Below are positions 6,747 to 15,070 of a stretch of DNA of 39,610 bases, piece by piece. The notes under the pieces were generated by a model. The model saw only the letters and a program-made list of their open reading frames with translations, made no database searches and was not told the DNA's origin. The position numbers were made by a program, and so were the translations under genes. Source of the stretch: Candidatus Fibrimonadaceae bacterium (GTDB lineage: Bacteria > Fibrobacterota > Fibrobacteria > Fibrobacterales > Fibrobacteraceae); contig JAITUM010000247.1 in assembly GCA_031286305.1 (NCBI GenBank), positions 1-39,610 of the forward strand, given 5' to 3'. The stretch's first letter is position 1, and every line of letters starts with the position of its first letter.

Positions 6747-8144
6747 ATGGCAAAAAAAGTTCAAGATGCGTTAAAAGATTTAGTTTCGCTTTGCAAAAGG
6801 CGTGGCATTATTTACCCAGGCTCGGAAATATATGACGGACTCGCAAATACATGGGATTATGGACCTTATGGAGCAGAGTTAAAAAAGAACATTAAAGACT
6901 TGTGGTGGAAAAAATTCGTTGCAAGCCGCGAAGATGTTGTGGGGTTGGATTCCTCAATTTTGCTGAACCCGCGCGTTTGGGAAGCAAGTGGCCACGTTGG
7001 GAGCTTTAGCGACCCGCTGGTGGATTGCAAAGTGTGCAAAGAACGCTCAAGAGCAGACCATTTGCTGGAAAGCAAACTGGGGGCAGGAGTCGCAGCCGGC
7101 AAAAATTTTGCGGAAATTACCGAAATGATGAAAGAAAACGCCATCCAGTGCCCAAAATGCGGCAGCAAAGACTGGACGGAACCCCGCTCCTTTAATTTGA
7201 TGTTTAAAACAGAAATGGGAGTTATTGAAGGCGCTGGGAACCAAGTGTATTTACGCCCAGAAACCGCTCAGGGAATTTTTATAAACTTTAAAAATGTAGT
7301 TGATAGCAGCAGGCAAAAAATCCCATTCGGCATCGGGCAAATAGGAAAAAGTTTTAGAAACGAAATTACGCCGGGAAACTTTATCTTTCGCACAAGGGAA
7401 TTTGAACAGGCAGAAATGCAGTTCTTTTGCAAACCGGGCTCCGAACATGAATGGTATGAATATTGGGTAGATTTTAGCCTGGAATGGCTAATGGAAATAG
7501 GAATACGCAAGGAAAAATTGAGAGTAAGAGAGCACTTACAAAAAGAACTCTCGCACTATTCAAATGGAACAAGCGATATTGAATATGAGTTCCCATTTGG
7601 CTGGGGCGAGCTGTGGGGCATAGCAAGCAGAACAAATTATGATTTGACCCAGCACATTGAATATTCAAAAGTTGATCTGCGTTACCATGATAAAATTGCA
7701 AACGAAAAATACGTTCCCTTTGTGATTGAACCTTCGCTTGGCATTGACAGGCTTTTGTTGGTTTTGCTAAGCGATGCCTACGACGTGGAAAAAACCGAAA
7801 CCGGAGAAGACCGCACAGTGCTCCGTTTCCATCCGAGCATTGCGCCGGTCAAGGCCGCAATATTGCCGCTCTCAAAAGATGAAGAACTAATGACCGTTGC
7901 AAAGGATCTTTACAAAAAACTCATCAAAAAATTCCCTGTGGAATATGATGAAACTCAAAGCATAGGCAAACGCTACCGCCGTCAAGACGAAATTGGCACC
8001 CCTTATTGCATAACAATAGATTTTGGCACAATAGGCAAAGACGGCGAAGATAAAAAAGGTTTGGTGACCATCCGTGAACGCGATTCAATGAAACAAGAAG
8101 TTATAAGGCTGGAAGATGTGGAAAAACGATTGACTGCAATTTGA
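6747..8144 (+). CDS. glyQS: Glycine--tRNA ligase (alpha2, eukaryote/Thermus-type)
   Basis: [80 protein letters not shown]. Confidence 0.95.
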
Positions 8145-9652
8145 TTATGCCAATGCAGATGAACATATCGCAGGGAATGCGGTTAGACCAAAAACTATCC
8201 GCACAGACCATACTTACATCAGAAATTTTACAAATGAATTCCCTTGAATTGGAAGCTGCCATTCAACAGGAACTTGAAATAAATCCTCTTTTGGAAATTG
8301 ACGATAGCATTGAAAGTGAAAGCGATTGGGCTGAGTTTGGGGAAGCAGATTCAAATTCAGACTCGGATATAGGCCTTTTGGACGATCCCAACCAAAAAAC
8401 AGATATTGATTGGGATGATTATTTTAAGGAAGGGTTCAAAGATTCCGAACCTGAGGATTTTAGCCGTAGAGACCCGGACGAAGATGATTGGGAGCGCCCG
8501 CAGAGTTATGATTTGGATGTTCAGCAATATTTGCTAAATCAATTAAAAAATCGGAATTTGCCGGAAAAAATTTTTGAATGCCTTATGTACTTAGTGGGCT
8601 GTGTTGGTGATAACGGATTTTTGCGCGATGAAAGCCAAAAAGAAATTGAAGAAGAAAACCACAATGAAAATCCTTTAATCAAAGCCATAGATCAGGTTTT
8701 GCGAAATGAAGGATCCTTGGCAAAAGCTCCTAAGGAAGTCAAAGAAGCTTTTGAAATTTTGCGCAGTTTGGAGCCGCCCGGAATAGGCGCTTTTGATTTG
8801 CGTGATTGTTTTATTATTCAGGCAAAAAGAATACCGGATTTTTCAAAAGTCGCTTTTAATATTTTAGAAAATCACTACGATTTGCTTTTAGAGCTGCGTT
8901 ATATGCAAATTTCAAAAACTTTGAGCATCTCCGTGCAAGAGGTCAACAATGCCGTAAAAGAACTTGCAAGGTTAAATCCTCATCCTTTAACGCAAATTCC
9001 GGCATCTAAGCTTTCTTTTGTAACTCCGGATTTTATTGTAGAGAGAGAACCCGATGGTTCATTTAGCGTAATGCTCAGAGACGGCACAAAATCACGGTTA
9101 AAAATAAATGACACTTACAGAGATTTGCTAAAAACCACAAGCGTAAGCGGTGCGGAAAAATCTTGGATAAGAAACAAATTAAATTCTGCAAATATTTTTA
9201 TGCGAAGCGTAGCGAGCCGCAAAGAGTCCATGCTTTTGGTAATGAATGCCATAGTGCGCCGTCAATACGATTTTTTTGCCCGTGGTCCTCAGCACTTGAG
9301 GCCCATGATTCTGCAAGACATTGCAGACGAGGTAAATCGGAATGTCAGCACTGTGAATAGAGTCACAAACGGAAAATATGTTCAAACCACTTATGGCATT
9401 TTTGAGTTAAAAAATTTCTTCTCCGCAGGTGTTGCCCAAGACGATGGCACTGAAGTGAGCAATGTAAAGATAAAGAACAGCATCAAAGAATTGATAAACA
9501 ACGAAGACAAGAGCAGCCCTCTTTCCGATTTGGAAATCTCCGAACTTTTGGAAAAGCGCGGCTTAAAAGTAGCCCGCCGAACCGTAAACAAGTACCGCGA
9601 AGCCATGGGAATTCTACCGGTAAAAGTGAGAAGGGGCAGATTGGAGATGTGA
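8141..9652 (+). CDS. rpoN: RNA polymerase sigma-54 factor
   Basis: N-terminal Q-rich [40 protein letters not shown]-terminal RpoN box [16 protein letters not shown]; 503 aa overlapping the glyQS stop. Confidence 0.95.
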
Positions 9653-9685
9653 GTGTCCTGTTCATAATTGTATCTCCTTTTTTGT

Positions 9686-9817
9686 AGGGGAAAAAATTCC
9701 CCCTCGCCGCTACTCCGTGCGCGGCTACCCCCAATGCGGGGCTGGTTCGCGTGGCCGCTCCCTAACGCCCCGCAACGCCCCGATTTGAGCGAAGTGTAAA
9801 GAGATGCCATGGTGGGT
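9686..9817. repeat. GC-rich intergenic repeat, copy 1 (132 bp)
   Basis: aggggaaaaaattccccctcgccgctactccgtgcgcggctacccccaatgcggggctggttcg...acgccccgcaacgccccgatttgagcgaagtgtaaa...gccatggtgggt; matches 12765..12896. Confidence 0.92.
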
Positions 9818-10063
9818 AAATTTAAACGAATATGCTTTCACAGGACCTAGTACCTTACCAAGAGACACATGGCTTACAAATGTTCAAATCACAACAGTAC
9901 CTTGGCAACGTGAATTTGCTACAGCATATAACGAGGCATGGAATAGCGCAAAGACCGAAAATAACAAAAGCGTTCCAAAACATCTTGAAGGCGGAACTGC
10001 GATTGATACATACGCTTGATGTATTAAACTACACCAAGCGAGTAATTTCCGACATTTGACAAT

Positions 10064-10201: not shown

Positions 10202-10792
10202 TTACGCCAGTTGGTTCAATAAATTATATGTATTGTATCCTGTGTATTTTTGATATGGATTGACTGAATTAGATTTTCCTTTTTCTGGAATTTTCCCATG
10301 TTCTGCTTCATATTCTTTCATGGTGTTCTGGTAAATATCATAAAATTTCGAACATCTAGATAATTCGTCTTTCGTAAGTAATCCGCTACCCCATGCTCCG
10401 TTGGCAAATCTCAATAATTCTTGATTGGGATTTCCATAAATAGCATAATCGTTTCCTCTGTAGTTTTCATAAGCCGCTTTACGGTCCGGCGATGCAACGG
10501 ATACGAATTTCCATAACAACTTTTTTTCTTCAAGTCTAAATGCCTCTGTTGCTTTTCCAATATCTTCCATAGCCATTCCTTTTTCAGCAGTCTTTAAAGC
10601 CAATGCCCTAATAGCTTCCTCAAACTCCTCTTCCGACATTGCAACATCTTTACTTGGAATCATATTCCAATCAGGTTTAGGCAATTTGTATTTGATACCC
10701 TGCGTATTAGTAGGCATTAAAACACTAATTAGGCTGTTTTTATTCTTATTGGATTTATCATTCTTTTTTGAAAGTCCATCCATTAAGAGCAT
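10202..10792 (-). CDS. 'SPDR' family protein 1 (unrecognised family)
   Basis: ...LPKPDWNMIPSKDVAMSEEEFEEAIRALALKTAEKG...LLWKFVSVASPDRKAAYENY; core resembles the ORFs at 11736 and 13690. Start uncertain: the predicted sigma-54 TSS (~10830) rules out the upstream 10900 start; 10828 would be nearly leaderless. Confidence 0.6.
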   Translation of the reverse strand: MLLMDGLSKKNDKSNKNKNSLISVLMPTNTQGIKYKLPKPDWNMIPSKDVAMSEEEFEEAIRALALKTAEKGMAMEDIGKATEAFRLEEKKLLWKFVSVASPDRKAAYENYRGNDYAIYGNPNQELLRFANGAWGSGLLTKDELSRCSKFYDIYQNTMKEYEAEHGKIPEKGKSNSVNPYQKYTGYNTYNLLNQLA

Positions 10793-10840
10793 GGTTGTAA
10801 GGTCTTGGGAATTCGCAGTTATTCTCATATGTAAAATGCA

Positions 10841-10856
10841 CGCAAAAATCGTGCCA
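10841..10856 (-). promoter_or_regulatory. Predicted sigma-54 (-24/-12) promoter of SPDR-1
   Basis: Minus strand TGGCACGATTTTTGCG: TGGCAC-N5-TTGC with GG-N10-GC spacing. Confidence 0.72.
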
Positions 10857-11041
10857 GAATAATAACTAAACTTTTTCCCATAACATGCCGATATATACAA
10901 AGGAGTATTTTATGAATATCAATGAAATTACAAGAATGCAAACAGGCTTGAAGCAAATAAGCCAAGATAAGGGTGTTTTACATATAATTTTTTATAGGAA
11001 CAACAGGTCCGCCAATTGTAGTATACGGAACGTAGTGAAAA

Positions 11042-11305
11042 CTACTCATAATGCCCCCACATAGCCAAAATCTTAATTATTTTTTCTTGTTCCAAAACCT
11101 CATATACAAGACGATGCTGAACATTTAATCTTCGAGAATAAGCACCGTTCAAATCTCCCTGCAACTTTTCATAAGGTGGCGGCTTTTTGTACGGATTTTC
11201 CTTAATTAATGCTATGTACTCTTTTGCTTTCTCATACAAATATGATTTTTTTATTTTTTCAGAATCTTTCGCCGCTTGATTTGTATATAATATTTTGTAG
11301 CTCAA
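11042..11305 (-). CDS. yoeB: Txe/YoeB-family mRNA interferase toxin
   Basis: LSYKILYTNQAAKDSEKIKKSYLYEKAKEYIALIKENPYKKPPPYEKLQGDLNGAYSRRLNVQHRLVYEV...KILAMWGHYE. Likely TTG start overlapping the antitoxin stop (TTGA); alternative ATG at 11332. Confidence 0.9.
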   Translation of the reverse strand: MSYKILYTNQAAKDSEKIKKSYLYEKAKEYIALIKENPYKKPPPYEKLQGDLNGAYSRRLNVQHRLVYEVLEQEKIIKILAMWGHYE

Positions 11306-11550
11306 AAATTTACCTCTTCTTCCGACAAGCATTCACTAAGAGGCGTATTTAATCCCTCAATAATTTTTTCTTTCATTTTAGGTATGGAGGCTATATGCAG
11401 AGTTTCCATAATATTTTGGTATTCTTCTTCGGACATAATTACGGCATTGCCCTTTTCTGTCCAAATATTTATAGCATAGCCATACATAGCGGCATTTTCA
11501 AATACCTCTACAAAACTTCCTTTATACGCAGGCGCACTTATAGTTGTCAT
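11302..11550 (-). CDS. yefM: Phd/YefM-family antitoxin
   Basis: MTTISAPAYKGSFVEVFENAAMYGYAINIWTEKGNAVIMSEEEYQNIMETLHI; overlaps the downstream YoeB gene. ORF extends to an alternative start at 11583. Confidence 0.85.
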   Translation of the reverse strand: MTTISAPAYKGSFVEVFENAAMYGYAINIWTEKGNAVIMSEEEYQNIMETLHIASIPKMKEKIIEGLNTPLSECLSEEEVNF

Positions 11551-11686
11551 GGTAACAAATATAGAAATTTTTACAGCCTCCATAACTTCAACCCCACTTA
11601 AAAAACATCCCGCAAATATTTTTTACATGCGTAAGTGCCTGGGATACGCAGAGATACGAAAGGCCGCAAAAGCGACAGCTAAACAA

Positions 11687-11702
11687 TGGCGTAATTTTTG
11701 CA
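11687..11702 (+). promoter_or_regulatory. Predicted sigma-54 promoter of SPDR-2
   Basis: TGGCGTAATTTTTGCA; GG 11688-11689, GC 11700-11701, GG-N10-GC; start codon 35 nt further with GAGG Shine-Dalgarno. Confidence 0.62.
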
Positions 11703-11735
11703 TGTATAGATTTAAACAAACAAAACGAGGTTCTT

Positions 11736-12725
11736 ATGGACAGAATAAGCGGTTATAGCGTTGCAAGCAATTACAGCAGTTACAATGCAGGAAAAACATC
11801 GCAAACTAGCAATAAATCTTTTACGATTCCTACAGAAGCCCCTATGATTGGTCCGCTTACTTTTCAGAGAAAAGACAGCAGTTATAACCCATTCAAAGAT
11901 ATAGCCGAAACAGGCAATGTTAATTTTCCAGAGTGGATGCAAACAAAAACCACGCCTGCAAGGAGCGATGAAGAAATTCTAAAAGACATAGAGGAACTCG
12001 CAAAAGAACATGCAAGAATAGGCGTATCTAAATCTAAACTTGAAGATGACGAAAGATTTTTAAAGTTAATGTATGAATATATATCATCTGTTTCACCCGA
12101 TAGAGAAGGCATTTTAAAAAGTTCGGTAATGGAAATAAATGAAAGATTAGAGAACGAATTTCCCGGAGCAGTAAACTCGCAATATTATAGCATGAGTGAC
12201 ATATATCGGCAAGTTGACTCGCAAAGAACGAAAGAAGATGAAGATAAAAAAGAACCAATAGATTATTTAATTGAAATGCTTAAAAATAAAGAAAAAGCGA
12301 AAGGCAGTAGTGGCGGAACAATAAGCAGCATAACAAAGAATGGTGATTATTATACAATTGATGTTGACTACGGCGGAGGAAAGAAGTCAACTTTAAATTA
12401 CACTAACAGTGGTGAATTTGTAAGTATGCAAATGCAAGGTAATAATTACTTTGTTGGGGGAATTGACAGTTCCAGTGGCACAGTTACAGCCGCACAATTT
12501 TTCGATGATAGCGGCTACCGAATAATGGACTACAATCCTAACGGCGGCTTGTATCAAAAATACACAGAAGAAGAAAGTAAGCGAATGCAAGATGTGTTTG
12601 GTACATACAATGCTGTATATTATGTTGCTACAGGAGATAACAAAGGTTATGAAGCATTTAACAAGGAAGCATACAATAGCACTTACGAAAGGTTAATGAG
12701 CGAAAAGGCTAATAGCGTTGCGTAG
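11736..12725 (+). CDS. 'SPDR' family protein 2 (unrecognised family)
   Basis: FPEWMQTKTTPARSDEEILKDIEELAKEHARIG...LMYEYISSVSPDREGILKSSVMEINERLE...STYERLMSEKANSVA*; aligns along most of its length to 13690..14778. Confidence 0.85.
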   Translation: MDRISGYSVASNYSSYNAGKTSQTSNKSFTIPTEAPMIGPLTFQRKDSSYNPFKDIAETGNVNFPEWMQTKTTPARSDEEILKDIEELAKEHARIGVSKSKLEDDERFLKLMYEYISSVSPDREGILKSSVMEINERLENEFPGAVNSQYYSMSDIYRQVDSQRTKEDEDKKEPIDYLIEMLKNKEKAKGSSGGTISSITKNGDYYTIDVDYGGGKKSTLNYTNSGEFVSMQMQGNNYFVGGIDSSSGTVTAAQFFDDSGYRIMDYNPNGGLYQKYTEEESKRMQDVFGTYNAVYYVATGDNKGYEAFNKEAYNSTYERLMSEKANSVA

Positions 12726-12735
12726 AAAAAGGCAC
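12676..12735 (+). repeat. 60-nt exact repeat at the 3' end of SPDR-2 (other copy 14729..14788)
   Basis: atagcacttacgaaaggttaatgagcgaaaaggctaatagcgttgcgtagaaaaaggcac at both places. Confidence 0.95.
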
Positions 12736-12764
12736 TCCGTTCCCGCCGCTTGCTACCATCATAT

Positions 12765-12896
12765 AGGGGAAAAAATTCCCCCTCGCCGCTACTCCGTGCG
12801 CGGCTACCCCCAATGCGGGGCTGGTTCGGCTACGCTCACCAAACGCCCCGCAACGCCCCGATTTGAGCGAAGTGTAAAAGGGTTGCCATGGTGGGT
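12765..12896. repeat. GC-rich intergenic repeat, copy 2 (132 bp)
   Basis: Same length and near-identical to 9686..9817 apart from an internal block (cggctacgctcaccaaac versus cgcgtggccgctccctaac). Confidence 0.92.
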
Positions 12897-12980
12897 GTGA
12901 TTGCCTCTCTGATTCTATTAAAGCCTAGGGGTGAAGCTTTCTATATTGATTATTAACTTTTTTTTATAGGAGATTCCATC

Positions 12981-13589
12981 ATGAAAAGAACACTTTTAGT
13001 TCTCGCTTCACTTATGGCAATAGCATTATTGTCGTGTTCCGATAATTCAAATTCTTTAACAGAGGATTTGAATTTACCACAGTCACAAGCTCTGCCAAAT
13101 GGACTATCGGCAGGAGAATTAACTCCTATTAAAGGAAATAATTCTTTTCTAGCAAAGAAAGCTGAAGCAGCAAGCTCTGCGGAGGAATACAGTACATACA
13201 ATGTCAGTTGTGGCTCAATGTCTGTATCAGGCGTTTCGCATAATAATTGGGCTCAGTCAAGCAAGGCAACTTGTAATTTTACTGGTCTTCCAACAGGCTC
13301 AATTAATTTAGCTTATGAAATATTTTTCGGTTCATACTACAATGTTAATGGTACTTTTAGTATATATAATCTTATAATTGAATGCGGTAATAATAGCGGT
13401 TATTATGATGGTTATATTTATAACTGGTATGGTGATTTATATTCAGTAGGTACATACGCATTTCAAGGCGATCCAGCTAAAGTTACATGTCAAGTATCAT
13501 TCTATGGAAAATGCAATGGAACTGGTCTTGGAGGAACTCCTTGCAGTTTCGGAATTAACGGTGTAAACATGACTAGTTACTATCTGTAA
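12981..13589 (+). CDS. Putative lipoprotein
   Basis: MKRTLLVLASLMAIALLSCSDNSN lipobox; ataGGAGattccatcATG. Confidence 0.82.
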   Translation: MKRTLLVLASLMAIALLSCSDNSNSLTEDLNLPQSQALPNGLSAGELTPIKGNNSFLAKKAEAASSAEEYSTYNVSCGSMSVSGVSHNNWAQSSKATCNFTGLPTGSINLAYEIFFGSYYNVNGTFSIYNLIIECGNNSGYYDGYIYNWYGDLYSVGTYAFQGDPAKVTCQVSFYGKCNGTGLGGTPCSFGINGVNMTSYYL

Positions 13590-13607
13590 TTGAAATATGG
13601 TACGCTC

Positions 13608-13636
13608 ATATTTAATAAAGTATGGGCTTTTTTTAA
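13608..13636 (+). terminator. Rho-independent terminator
   Basis: gctcata tttaataaag tatgggc followed by a T tract. Confidence 0.6.
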
Positions 13637-13638
13637 TT

Positions 13639-13654
13639 AGGCACGATTTTTGCG
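13639..13654 (+). promoter_or_regulatory. Predicted sigma-54 promoter of SPDR-3
   Basis: AGGCACGATTTTTGCG; GG 13640-13641, GC 13652-13653; same GGCACGATTTTTGCGT string as the SPDR-1 promoter; ATG at 13690 with GAGG. Confidence 0.7.
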
Positions 13655-13689
13655 TATATAACCTTAGAACAACCGAAAGTGAGGTTTTT

Positions 13690-14778
13690 ATGGAAGTCAG
13701 TTACGGCATGGTAAACGATGTTTATGGTTATGGAACTCAAAACGCATCACAGAATAGCAAAAGCGCATTTACAATTCCTAACATAGACGAAGATATAGCT
13801 GGAACAGCTAGTGCTAGTGCACAAAAAAATAATGTTAGTGTCAAAGTAGATATGATGGGTCCTAATTGGTATGAAAAGGCTTTCTACGACCCATTCAAAA
13901 CAAGCAACGTTACATTGCCTGAATGGATGCAAACCAAAACCGAACCTAAAAGAAGCGATGCTGAGATTTTGAAAGAAATGGAAGAGTTGGCAAAATTACA
14001 TGCAAAAACAGGGCAATTCCAATATAGCGACGAAAAATTTAAAGAGTTAATGGATGAATATATGTCTTCTGTTTCACCAGATAGAGCTGGCATTTTGGAA
14101 AAAAGTGTAAATGAAATAAACGAAAGAATAGTAATGGAGATGTTTGGAATGGCAGGAACAAAAGAAGATCCAGCAGAAGAAGCAAAAAAGAAAAGTGAAG
14201 AACTGATAGATTATTTAATGACAGCAATGGATGCTAAAAAAGGAAATGGAAAAGATAAAGGAAAAAATGATACTGACATAATAAGCAGTCTTATAGCAGC
14301 ACGAGGAAATATAGCATCTAGCAGTGACGGATATTATACCGCAGTAGATATTGATCGTGGAGACGGAAAGGTAACAACATTAGTATATGACAATCAAGGT
14401 AATAAAATGCCGTGGTTTACGATGAAAGGCGATATGTATGATAGAGTTTCAGTACAAAACGGGAAAGTGTCAAGTGCATTTTTTAATGACAGCGATGACC
14501 AAATAGTAATGATATATAGCAATGGAAATGATAATAAAGATGGGATTAGGCAAATAACTACAAAAGCAGAACATGCTCGTCGCAAAGAACTTCAAGCCGT
14601 GTATAATGCTGTATATGATTTTTCTGTAGGAAGGTATAACTCACATGAACAGCCCAATATAAATGGTGCTATGCTAACCAATGTCAATGGCATTGAAAAT
14701 ACTAACGCTTTAACAAAAGAAATATATGATAGCACTTACGAAAGGTTAATGAGCGAAAAGGCTAATAGCGTTGCGTAG
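13690..14778 (+). CDS. 'SPDR' family protein 3 (unrecognised family)
   Basis: Start at MEVSYGMVNDVYGYG; LPEWMQTKTEPKRSDAEILKEMEELAKLHAKTG...LMDEYMSSVSPDRAGILEKSVNEINERI...STYERLMSEKANSVA*. Confidence 0.85.
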   Translation: MEVSYGMVNDVYGYGTQNASQNSKSAFTIPNIDEDIAGTASASAQKNNVSVKVDMMGPNWYEKAFYDPFKTSNVTLPEWMQTKTEPKRSDAEILKEMEELAKLHAKTGQFQYSDEKFKELMDEYMSSVSPDRAGILEKSVNEINERIVMEMFGMAGTKEDPAEEAKKKSEELIDYLMTAMDAKKGNGKDKGKNDTDIISSLIAARGNIASSSDGYYTAVDIDRGDGKVTTLVYDNQGNKMPWFTMKGDMYDRVSVQNGKVSSAFFNDSDDQIVMIYSNGNDNKDGIRQITTKAEHARRKELQAVYNAVYDFSVGRYNSHEQPNINGAMLTNVNGIENTNALTKEIYDSTYERLMSEKANSVA

Positions 14779-14788
14779 AAAAAGGCAC
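14729..14788 (+). repeat. 60-nt exact repeat at the 3' end of SPDR-3
   Basis: Identical to 12676..12735. Confidence 0.95.
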
Positions 14789-14901: not shown

Positions 14902-15002
14902 GTTCAAATCTCCCTGCAACTTTTCATAAGGTGGCGGCTTTTATGATTTTTTTATTTTTTCAGAATTTTTCGCCGCTTGATTTGTATGTAATATTTTGTA
15001 GC
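14902..15002 (-). pseudogene. Internally deleted copy of the yoeB toxin gene
   Basis: gttcaaatctccctgcaacttttcataaggtggcggctttt then tatgatttttttattttttcagaa..tttcgccgcttgatttgtat.taatattttgtagc; matches 11147..11187 and 11241..11301 with ~54 nt missing between them. Confidence 0.88.
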
Positions 15003-15018
15003 ATTATAACCGATGATG

Positions 15019-15070
15019 TTGGCAAAAGCTCCTAAGGAGGTCAAAGAGGCTTTTGAAATTTTGCGCAGTT
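15019..15070 (+). pseudogene. 52-nt internal fragment of rpoN
   Basis: ttggcaaaagctcctaaggaggtcaaagaggcttttgaaattttgcgcagtt versus 8717..8768 of rpoN; two mismatches. Confidence 0.88.

Follow-up and report, generated by a model that had tools for sequence, protein, structure and literature searches.

What do three neighbouring genes for proteins of an unrecognised family, each behind what looks like a sigma-54 promoter, contribute to a bacterium of the Fibrobacterota? The genes, P0003, P0001 and P0002, lie beside rpoN in the window, by which we mean the whole 39,610-nucleotide (nt) contig JAITUM010000247.1 (C224) of a Candidatus Fibrimonadaceae genome (3.19 Mb, 94.7% complete, 277 contigs), and their products share a core that includes the motif SPDR. 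A sequence-only reading of the window had proposed an rpoN-linked regulon of a diversifying, non-Sec protein family that might be related to motility, surface or export. We conclude, with a probability of about 0.5, that the SPDR proteins are determinants co-expressed with the flagellum and are export substrates acting outside the cell. Membership of the family in the flagellar regulon is, judged by promoters and occurrence, very probable. By sequence, the family is unnamed, has promoter classes, undergoes turnover and, within the genome sets searched, occurs only in genomes that are flagellated.

SPDR proteins form a family without known relatives

P0001 and P0002 were full-length paralogues with 46% identity in the alignment, and the similarity of P0003 lay mainly within the SPDR core (P0001 versus P0003, E=7e-5 in one BLASTP comparison). 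An iterated profile united the three with 21 further complete members, and we sorted the resulting 24 into four subfamilies, A with P0001 and P0002, B with P0003, and C and D. The paralogy that the sequence-only reading had seen was thereby confirmed, and its reading frames and upstream strings were found exactly in the sequence. Its inventory of three genes stood, although it had overlooked two truncated paralogues and a divergent sigma-28-like promoter (Table 1).

The family gave no convincing match in Pfam, NCBIfam (at curated cut-offs), PHROGs or the Protein Data Bank (PDB), and the earlier reader had not recognised it. The AlphaFold2 model of P0001 comprised a disordered segment at residues 1-42 (predicted local distance difference test score, pLDDT, below 50), a helical core at about 50-141, eight strands at 195-275 and C-terminal helices, and that of P0003 comprised the SPDR core and a short part of three strands. 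Foldseek returned nothing at E<=0.001 for P0001 (PDB and viral libraries) or P0003 (PDB), with models built from 16-24 sequences at pLDDT 72-77. Identity with a known family was rejected on the sequence searches, and the comparison of these models added no match by fold. None of the 24 complete members carried a hydrophobic segment within residues 1-45, which supports the description of the family as non-Sec. We also observed a conserved C-terminal tail, FD-x-KA in many Lachnospiraceae members and -LA or -VA in many from Fibrobacterota (e.g., L185, L192, P0001 and P0003).

Most SPDR genes stand behind sigma-54-type sites

The textbook sigma-54 element is TGGCACG-N4-TTGC. TTGC and the GG-N10-GC spacing were present at all three window sites, and the -24 element TGGCAC was matched at 6 or 5 of its 6 positions at two of the three, the P0001 site reading TGGCGT. 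When the genome was scanned for this pattern, as had been suggested, GGCNNNATTTTTGC gave 14 matches compared with 1 for the reversed control, and TGGCACNNNNNTTGC gave 32 compared with 2. We scored the complete members, first-order Markov shuffles and control open reading frames (ORFs) with identical expressions. GG[CT][AG]-N6-TTGC occurred within 75 nt upstream of 16 of the 24 members, compared with 0.12 expected and 8 of 107 control ORFs, and AAA[CG]TTT-N9-13-GCCGATA, a sigma-28-like pattern, preceded 4 of the 24, with 0 expected and 0/107 controls; these counts are partly fitted because both expressions were composed after seeing these upstream sequences. A further three members closely follow another SPDR gene, as operon-downstream genes would. 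Together, one of these two kinds of site or an operon-downstream position accounted for 23 of the 24 members, the exception being in G053. The claim of a sigma-54-type site before each of the three window genes held.

The distance from GG to the start codon was 26-27 nt in every subfamily B gene with a sigma-54 site and 48-51 nt in subfamilies A and D. We placed GG at -25/-24 and the predicted transcription start site (TSS) 12 nt past GC; subfamily B genes are therefore predicted to be leaderless. Counted from the first G of GG, the ATG of P0003 is 27 nt away and coincides with the predicted TSS. The leaders of about 23-25 nt proposed earlier for both plus-strand genes stood, to which a predicted leaderless mRNA for the minus-strand gene is now added.

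Other members carry sigma-28-like promoters

The view that all members depend on sigma-54 was rejected because sigma-28-like elements precede subfamily C genes and a single D gene. The reference element for sigma-28 (FliA) was of the form TAAAGTTT-N11-GCCGATAA. AAACTTT-N11-GCCGATA stood before those subfamily C genes that are intact and before that D gene, and the window copy had a spacer of N12. Across the genus, the strict pattern matched six times: four matches preceded SPDR genes or remnants, and two preceded one other unnamed family. This second family (MTI-x-GC-x-GRIFDYVKV...) was present as two tandem copies (L139 and L142, G007:C260), one of which was searched and had no Pfam or NCBIfam match. 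Flagellin genes of the genus led us to reject the idea that the sigma-28-like pattern marks motility genes in general; among four flagellin starts examined (L133, L135 twice and L137), two had a sigma-54-like site and none had GCCGATA nearby.

The sigma-54-type sites point to a flagellar regulon

Across 12 genomes of the genus, GGCACGNNTTTTGC gave 5-15 matches per genome compared with 0-2 in controls. We took the downstream DNA of 60 GGCACGNNTTTTGC sites, together with loci of the window's own genome and those collected earlier. By our own count, approximately 43 of approximately 65 sites with an ORF stood before FlgA, FlgB, FlgE, FlgF/G, FlgH, FlgJ, FlgK or FlgL. These names were backed by Pfam for each representative type, except that one FlgB-like protein (L108) was named by resemblance, having no match, and FlgL by its flagellin-N domain. 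FliD, identified by Pfam, sits behind TGGCACATTTTTTGC in the window's own genome. Further targets of sigma-54-type sites were a MerR regulator and ClpB (both by Pfam) and an MgtE_N-like protein. The regulon and the motility link suggested by the sequence-only reading were supported by these flg and fliD promoters and by the co-occurrence with FlhA described below. Its description of the family as diversifying was likewise supported, and the proposal was incomplete in that some members stand behind sigma-28-like promoters and P0003-type mRNAs are predicted to be leaderless.

Several observations concern the sigma-54-type sites themselves. The ATG lay 26-27 nt from GG in about 41 of 65 regulon genes by our own count (e.g., L036, L065, L109, L110, L111 and window positions 10828-10856), and the sigma-54 flagellar regulon of the genus is predicted to be largely leaderless. 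Chaperone or heat-shock genes stood behind such sites in L107, L229, L099, L114 and L056, with GroES, Hsp20 and GrpE named by eye in addition to ClpB. One conserved site, AGGCACGCTTTTTGCAT, had no ORF behind it (L208, L210, L242, L245, L257 and L085), and further downstream the opposite strand carries what resembles, by eye, a murE-type gene's 3' end; this site possibly drives a sigma-54-dependent small RNA. In one genome (L223, L224 and L226, G004), tandem genes resembling PD-(D/E)XK or transposase_31 proteins (weak Pfam match) stood behind sigma-54-type sites.

SPDR genes are confined to flagellated genomes in two phyla

A profile search of genomes, also suggested earlier, recovered homologues in Fibrobacterota and Lachnospiraceae, which belong to two phyla. 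Profile A2 matched 13 of 168 Fibrobacterota genomes, namely 11 of the 12 of this genus and two in one genus of another family. A termite-gut setting is indicated by the name prefix and by published work, in which flagellar motility has been predicted for termite Fibromonadaceae and was lost in Fibrobacter (PMC4704652). Among 61 relatives, SPDR genes were present in 12 of 33 FlhA-positive and 0 of 28 FlhA-negative Fibrobacterota genomes (Fisher p=2e-4), a co-occurrence that is phylogenetically confounded because one genus supplies most of the signal. A match in G033 at E=0.09, which was not among the profile A2 matches, was excluded as chance, and a match labelled Accumulibacter (L178), which looks frame-broken and possibly reflects a binning error, was excluded as evidence.

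Lachnospiraceae provide an independent test of this co-occurrence. At E<=1e-4, 19 of 397 genomes (approximately 5%) matched, including Falcatimonas sp. MSJ-15, and FlhA was present in all 19, set against 211 of the 397 genomes as a whole (p=4e-6 by the hypergeometric test, with kinship among the 19 uncorrected). The Lachnospiraceae proteins resemble those of Fibrobacterota in that they are profile homologues, all in FlhA-positive genomes, and that two separate clades of them join Fibrobacterota clades; they differ in that most end in FD-x-KA and in that a sigma-28 -10-like element, [AC]CGATA[AT], lies within 150 nt upstream of only 10 of 22 members (0.7 expected), at least one of them too near the ATG for a promoter. 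A tree from 146 core columns had two deep branches with uneven support, one joining A and D with one Lachnospiraceae clade and the other joining B and C with two others, a topology that fits at least two transfers or one ancient duplication.

The island beside rpoN is recombining

The locus contains, in addition to the three genes, two SPDR remnants and a toxin-antitoxin pair (Table 1). The 3' DNA of P0001 is identical to that of P0002, indicating recent gene conversion or duplication, and the pieces of the scar behind P0002 are 96-100% identical to 11147-11187 and 11241-11301 in the toxin gene and to 8717-8768 in rpoN. On these sequence comparisons, the SPDR island is a site of recombination. 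Near-identical G+C-rich intergenic repeats at 9685-9817 and 12764-12896 flank the island as candidate recombination sites, and an ORF at 12981-13589 between the two subfamily A genes is lipoprotein-like (hydrophobic N-terminus, LLSCS) without a Pfam match.

The end of rpoN had been placed correctly, and all three sigma-54 Pfam domains are present. However, tblastn across all loci examined found RpoN beside SPDR genes only in loci overlapping the window, the other loci having flanks of only about 2-12 kb. We therefore dropped a meaningful linkage to rpoN, although a looser one could still exist, and regard the adjacency as probably incidental.

Table 1. Positions of the SPDR genes, their promoters and neighbouring features in the window.
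Feature	Position	Strand	Remarks
rpoN (sigma-54)	8141..9652	+	Sigma54_AID, CBD and DBD by Pfam; adjoins island
C-terminal remnant of subfamily D SPDR gene	9804..10019	+	Matching part FATAYNEAWNSAK...PKHLEGGTAIDTYA; BLASTP E=8e-13 and 7e-7 with D members
P0003	10202..10828	-	Subfamily B SPDR protein, 208 aa; AlphaFold2 pLDDT 72
Sigma-54 -24/-12 site TGGCACGATTTTTGCG	10841..10856	-	Before P0003; GG to ATG 27 nt
Sigma-28-like promoter TAAACTTT-N12-GCCGATA	10867..10893	+	Divergent from P0003 promoter; before subfamily C remnant at 10912
N-terminal remnant of subfamily C SPDR gene	10912..11064 (also given as 10912-10974)	+	Similarity over first ~20 codons, MNINEITRMQTGLKQISQD; C members matched by BLASTP-short at E=5e-8 and 3e-7
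YoeB/ParE-type toxin of toxin-antitoxin pair	11042..11332	-	Within island; Pfam PF06769 E=8e-10, PF05016 E=4e-7
Phd/YefM-type antitoxin	11302..11583	-	Pfam PF02604 E=9e-7, 0.8 bit below curated cut-off
Sigma-54 -24/-12 site TGGCGTAATTTTTGCA	11687..11702	+	Before P0001; GG to ATG 48 nt
P0001	11736..12725	+	Subfamily A SPDR protein, 329 aa; AlphaFold2 pLDDT 76.5, residues 1-42 disordered
P0001 3' end	12677..12735	+	DNA identical to 14730-14788 (P0002 end)
Sigma-54 -24/-12 site AGGCACGATTTTTGCG	13639..13654	+	Before P0002; GG to ATG 50 nt
P0002	13690..14778	+	Subfamily A SPDR protein, 362 aa
Rearrangement scar	14902..15070	+	Toxin-gene pieces 14902-14942 and 14942-15002; rpoN piece 15019-15070

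Proposed export by the flagellar apparatus and its alternatives

We propose that one set of SPDR genes would be transcribed by sigma-54 alongside the rod, ring, hook and cap genes, and another set from the sigma-28-like promoters. The proteins would most likely pass through the flagellar type III export apparatus as its substrates. The signal for export would reside in the disordered stretch of ~40 residues at the N-terminus, and the cargo would be the helical SPDR core together with the variable beta and C-terminal regions. The cargo would work outside the cell, either released or attached to the filament, and the family may diversify through duplication and gene conversion. Export and extracellular action, suggested by co-regulation, by non-Sec disordered N-termini and by turnover, are tentative, at slightly below even odds. 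The predicted co-expression with late export substrates speaks for export, as do the N-terminus without a hydrophobic segment and the disorder of P0001, two features that are necessary and not sufficient for it.

Several points weigh against this proposal. The N-termini of P0003-type proteins are less polar than those of subfamily A, and no testable sequence motif is known for the flagellar export signal. Moreover, most flagellated Fibrobacterota have no SPDR gene, and one flagellated member of the genus (G005, 92% complete) gave no match, which could be explained by genome incompleteness. We therefore regard the family as accessory to the flagellum.

The strongest alternative, possible though rather doubtful, is that SPDR proteins, as members of the flagellar regulon, remain intracellular and serve as chaperones for export, as regulators or as motor modulators. 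The promoter and co-occurrence evidence applies equally to this explanation, a soluble helical core with neither cysteines nor a signal peptide suits a cytoplasmic protein, and the MerR-type regulator and the MgtE_N-like protein share these promoters. However, a core chaperone or a part of the motor would not usually occur in multiple divergent copies per genome, vary in its C-terminal region, leave remnants and undergo gene conversion, and the absence of the family from most flagellated relatives also argues against such a role.

An origin as a mobile or conflict-related family, for instance as part of an island for defence or toxins, which took over flagellar promoters and is expressed only in motile cells, is improbable. 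In its favour, toxin-antitoxin genes occur within or next to the island, both here and among several relatives, the locus shows rearrangement, the Falcatimonas homologue adjoins apparent integrative-element genes, and two clades are each common to two phyla. However, tblastn of P0003 against phages and of the Falcatimonas homologue against plasmids, a scan of virus contigs and PHROGs all gave no relative (PADLOC was not searched); we rejected a phage or plasmid origin on these searches, and a generic mobile element would not be expected to be confined to flagellated genomes of two phyla. A merely chance resemblance to sigma-54 sites, before genes that have nothing to do with the flagellum, is very improbable, since the sites found before control ORFs are outweighed by the excess over shuffles, the fixed ATG spacings, the genome-wide enrichment (14:1 and 32:2) and the second flagellar-type promoter on other members.

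Flagellar export of SPDR proteins, extended to both phyla, would yield a speculative and somewhat unlikely scenario, in which a fast-diversifying family common to gut Lachnospiraceae and termite-gut Fibrobacterota is released at two assembly stages by sigma-54 and sigma-28, with the flagellum as a delivery device. The family, defined by sequence and tied to flagella by promoters and co-occurrence, supplies specific candidates for the non-structural flagellar proteins of commensals. It also reveals an annotation gap, since about one in twenty sampled Lachnospiraceae genomes carries it, yet no Pfam or NCBIfam model exists. In addition, the analysis sketches which flagellar genes sigma-54 would control in a lineage from the termite gut, for which only metagenome-assembled genomes were used.

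Comparison with known systems

Polar flagellates transcribe a tier of rod and hook genes with sigma-54 (PMC7064773). The regulon described here is similar in that rod, ring and hook genes stand behind sigma-54 promoters with a sigma-28-like tier alongside; it differs in that, by sequence, it adds the SPDR family and chaperone genes and in that the ATG coincides with the predicted TSS in about 41 of 65 genes.

The closest functional analogue of the SPDR proteins may be the flagellar co-expressed determinants (Feds) of Campylobacter jejuni, which are described as sigma-28 dependent and secreted (PMC5223770). Like the SPDR proteins, Feds are non-structural and under flagellar regulation, and the gut bacterium that has them encodes several, as accessories of its core flagellum. 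In contrast to Feds, most SPDR members stand behind sigma-54 sites, and their secretion is a prediction. As the likeness rests on descriptions and not on sequence comparison, we claim no relationship between the two; Feds nevertheless provide the nearest counterpart for how SPDR proteins may function.

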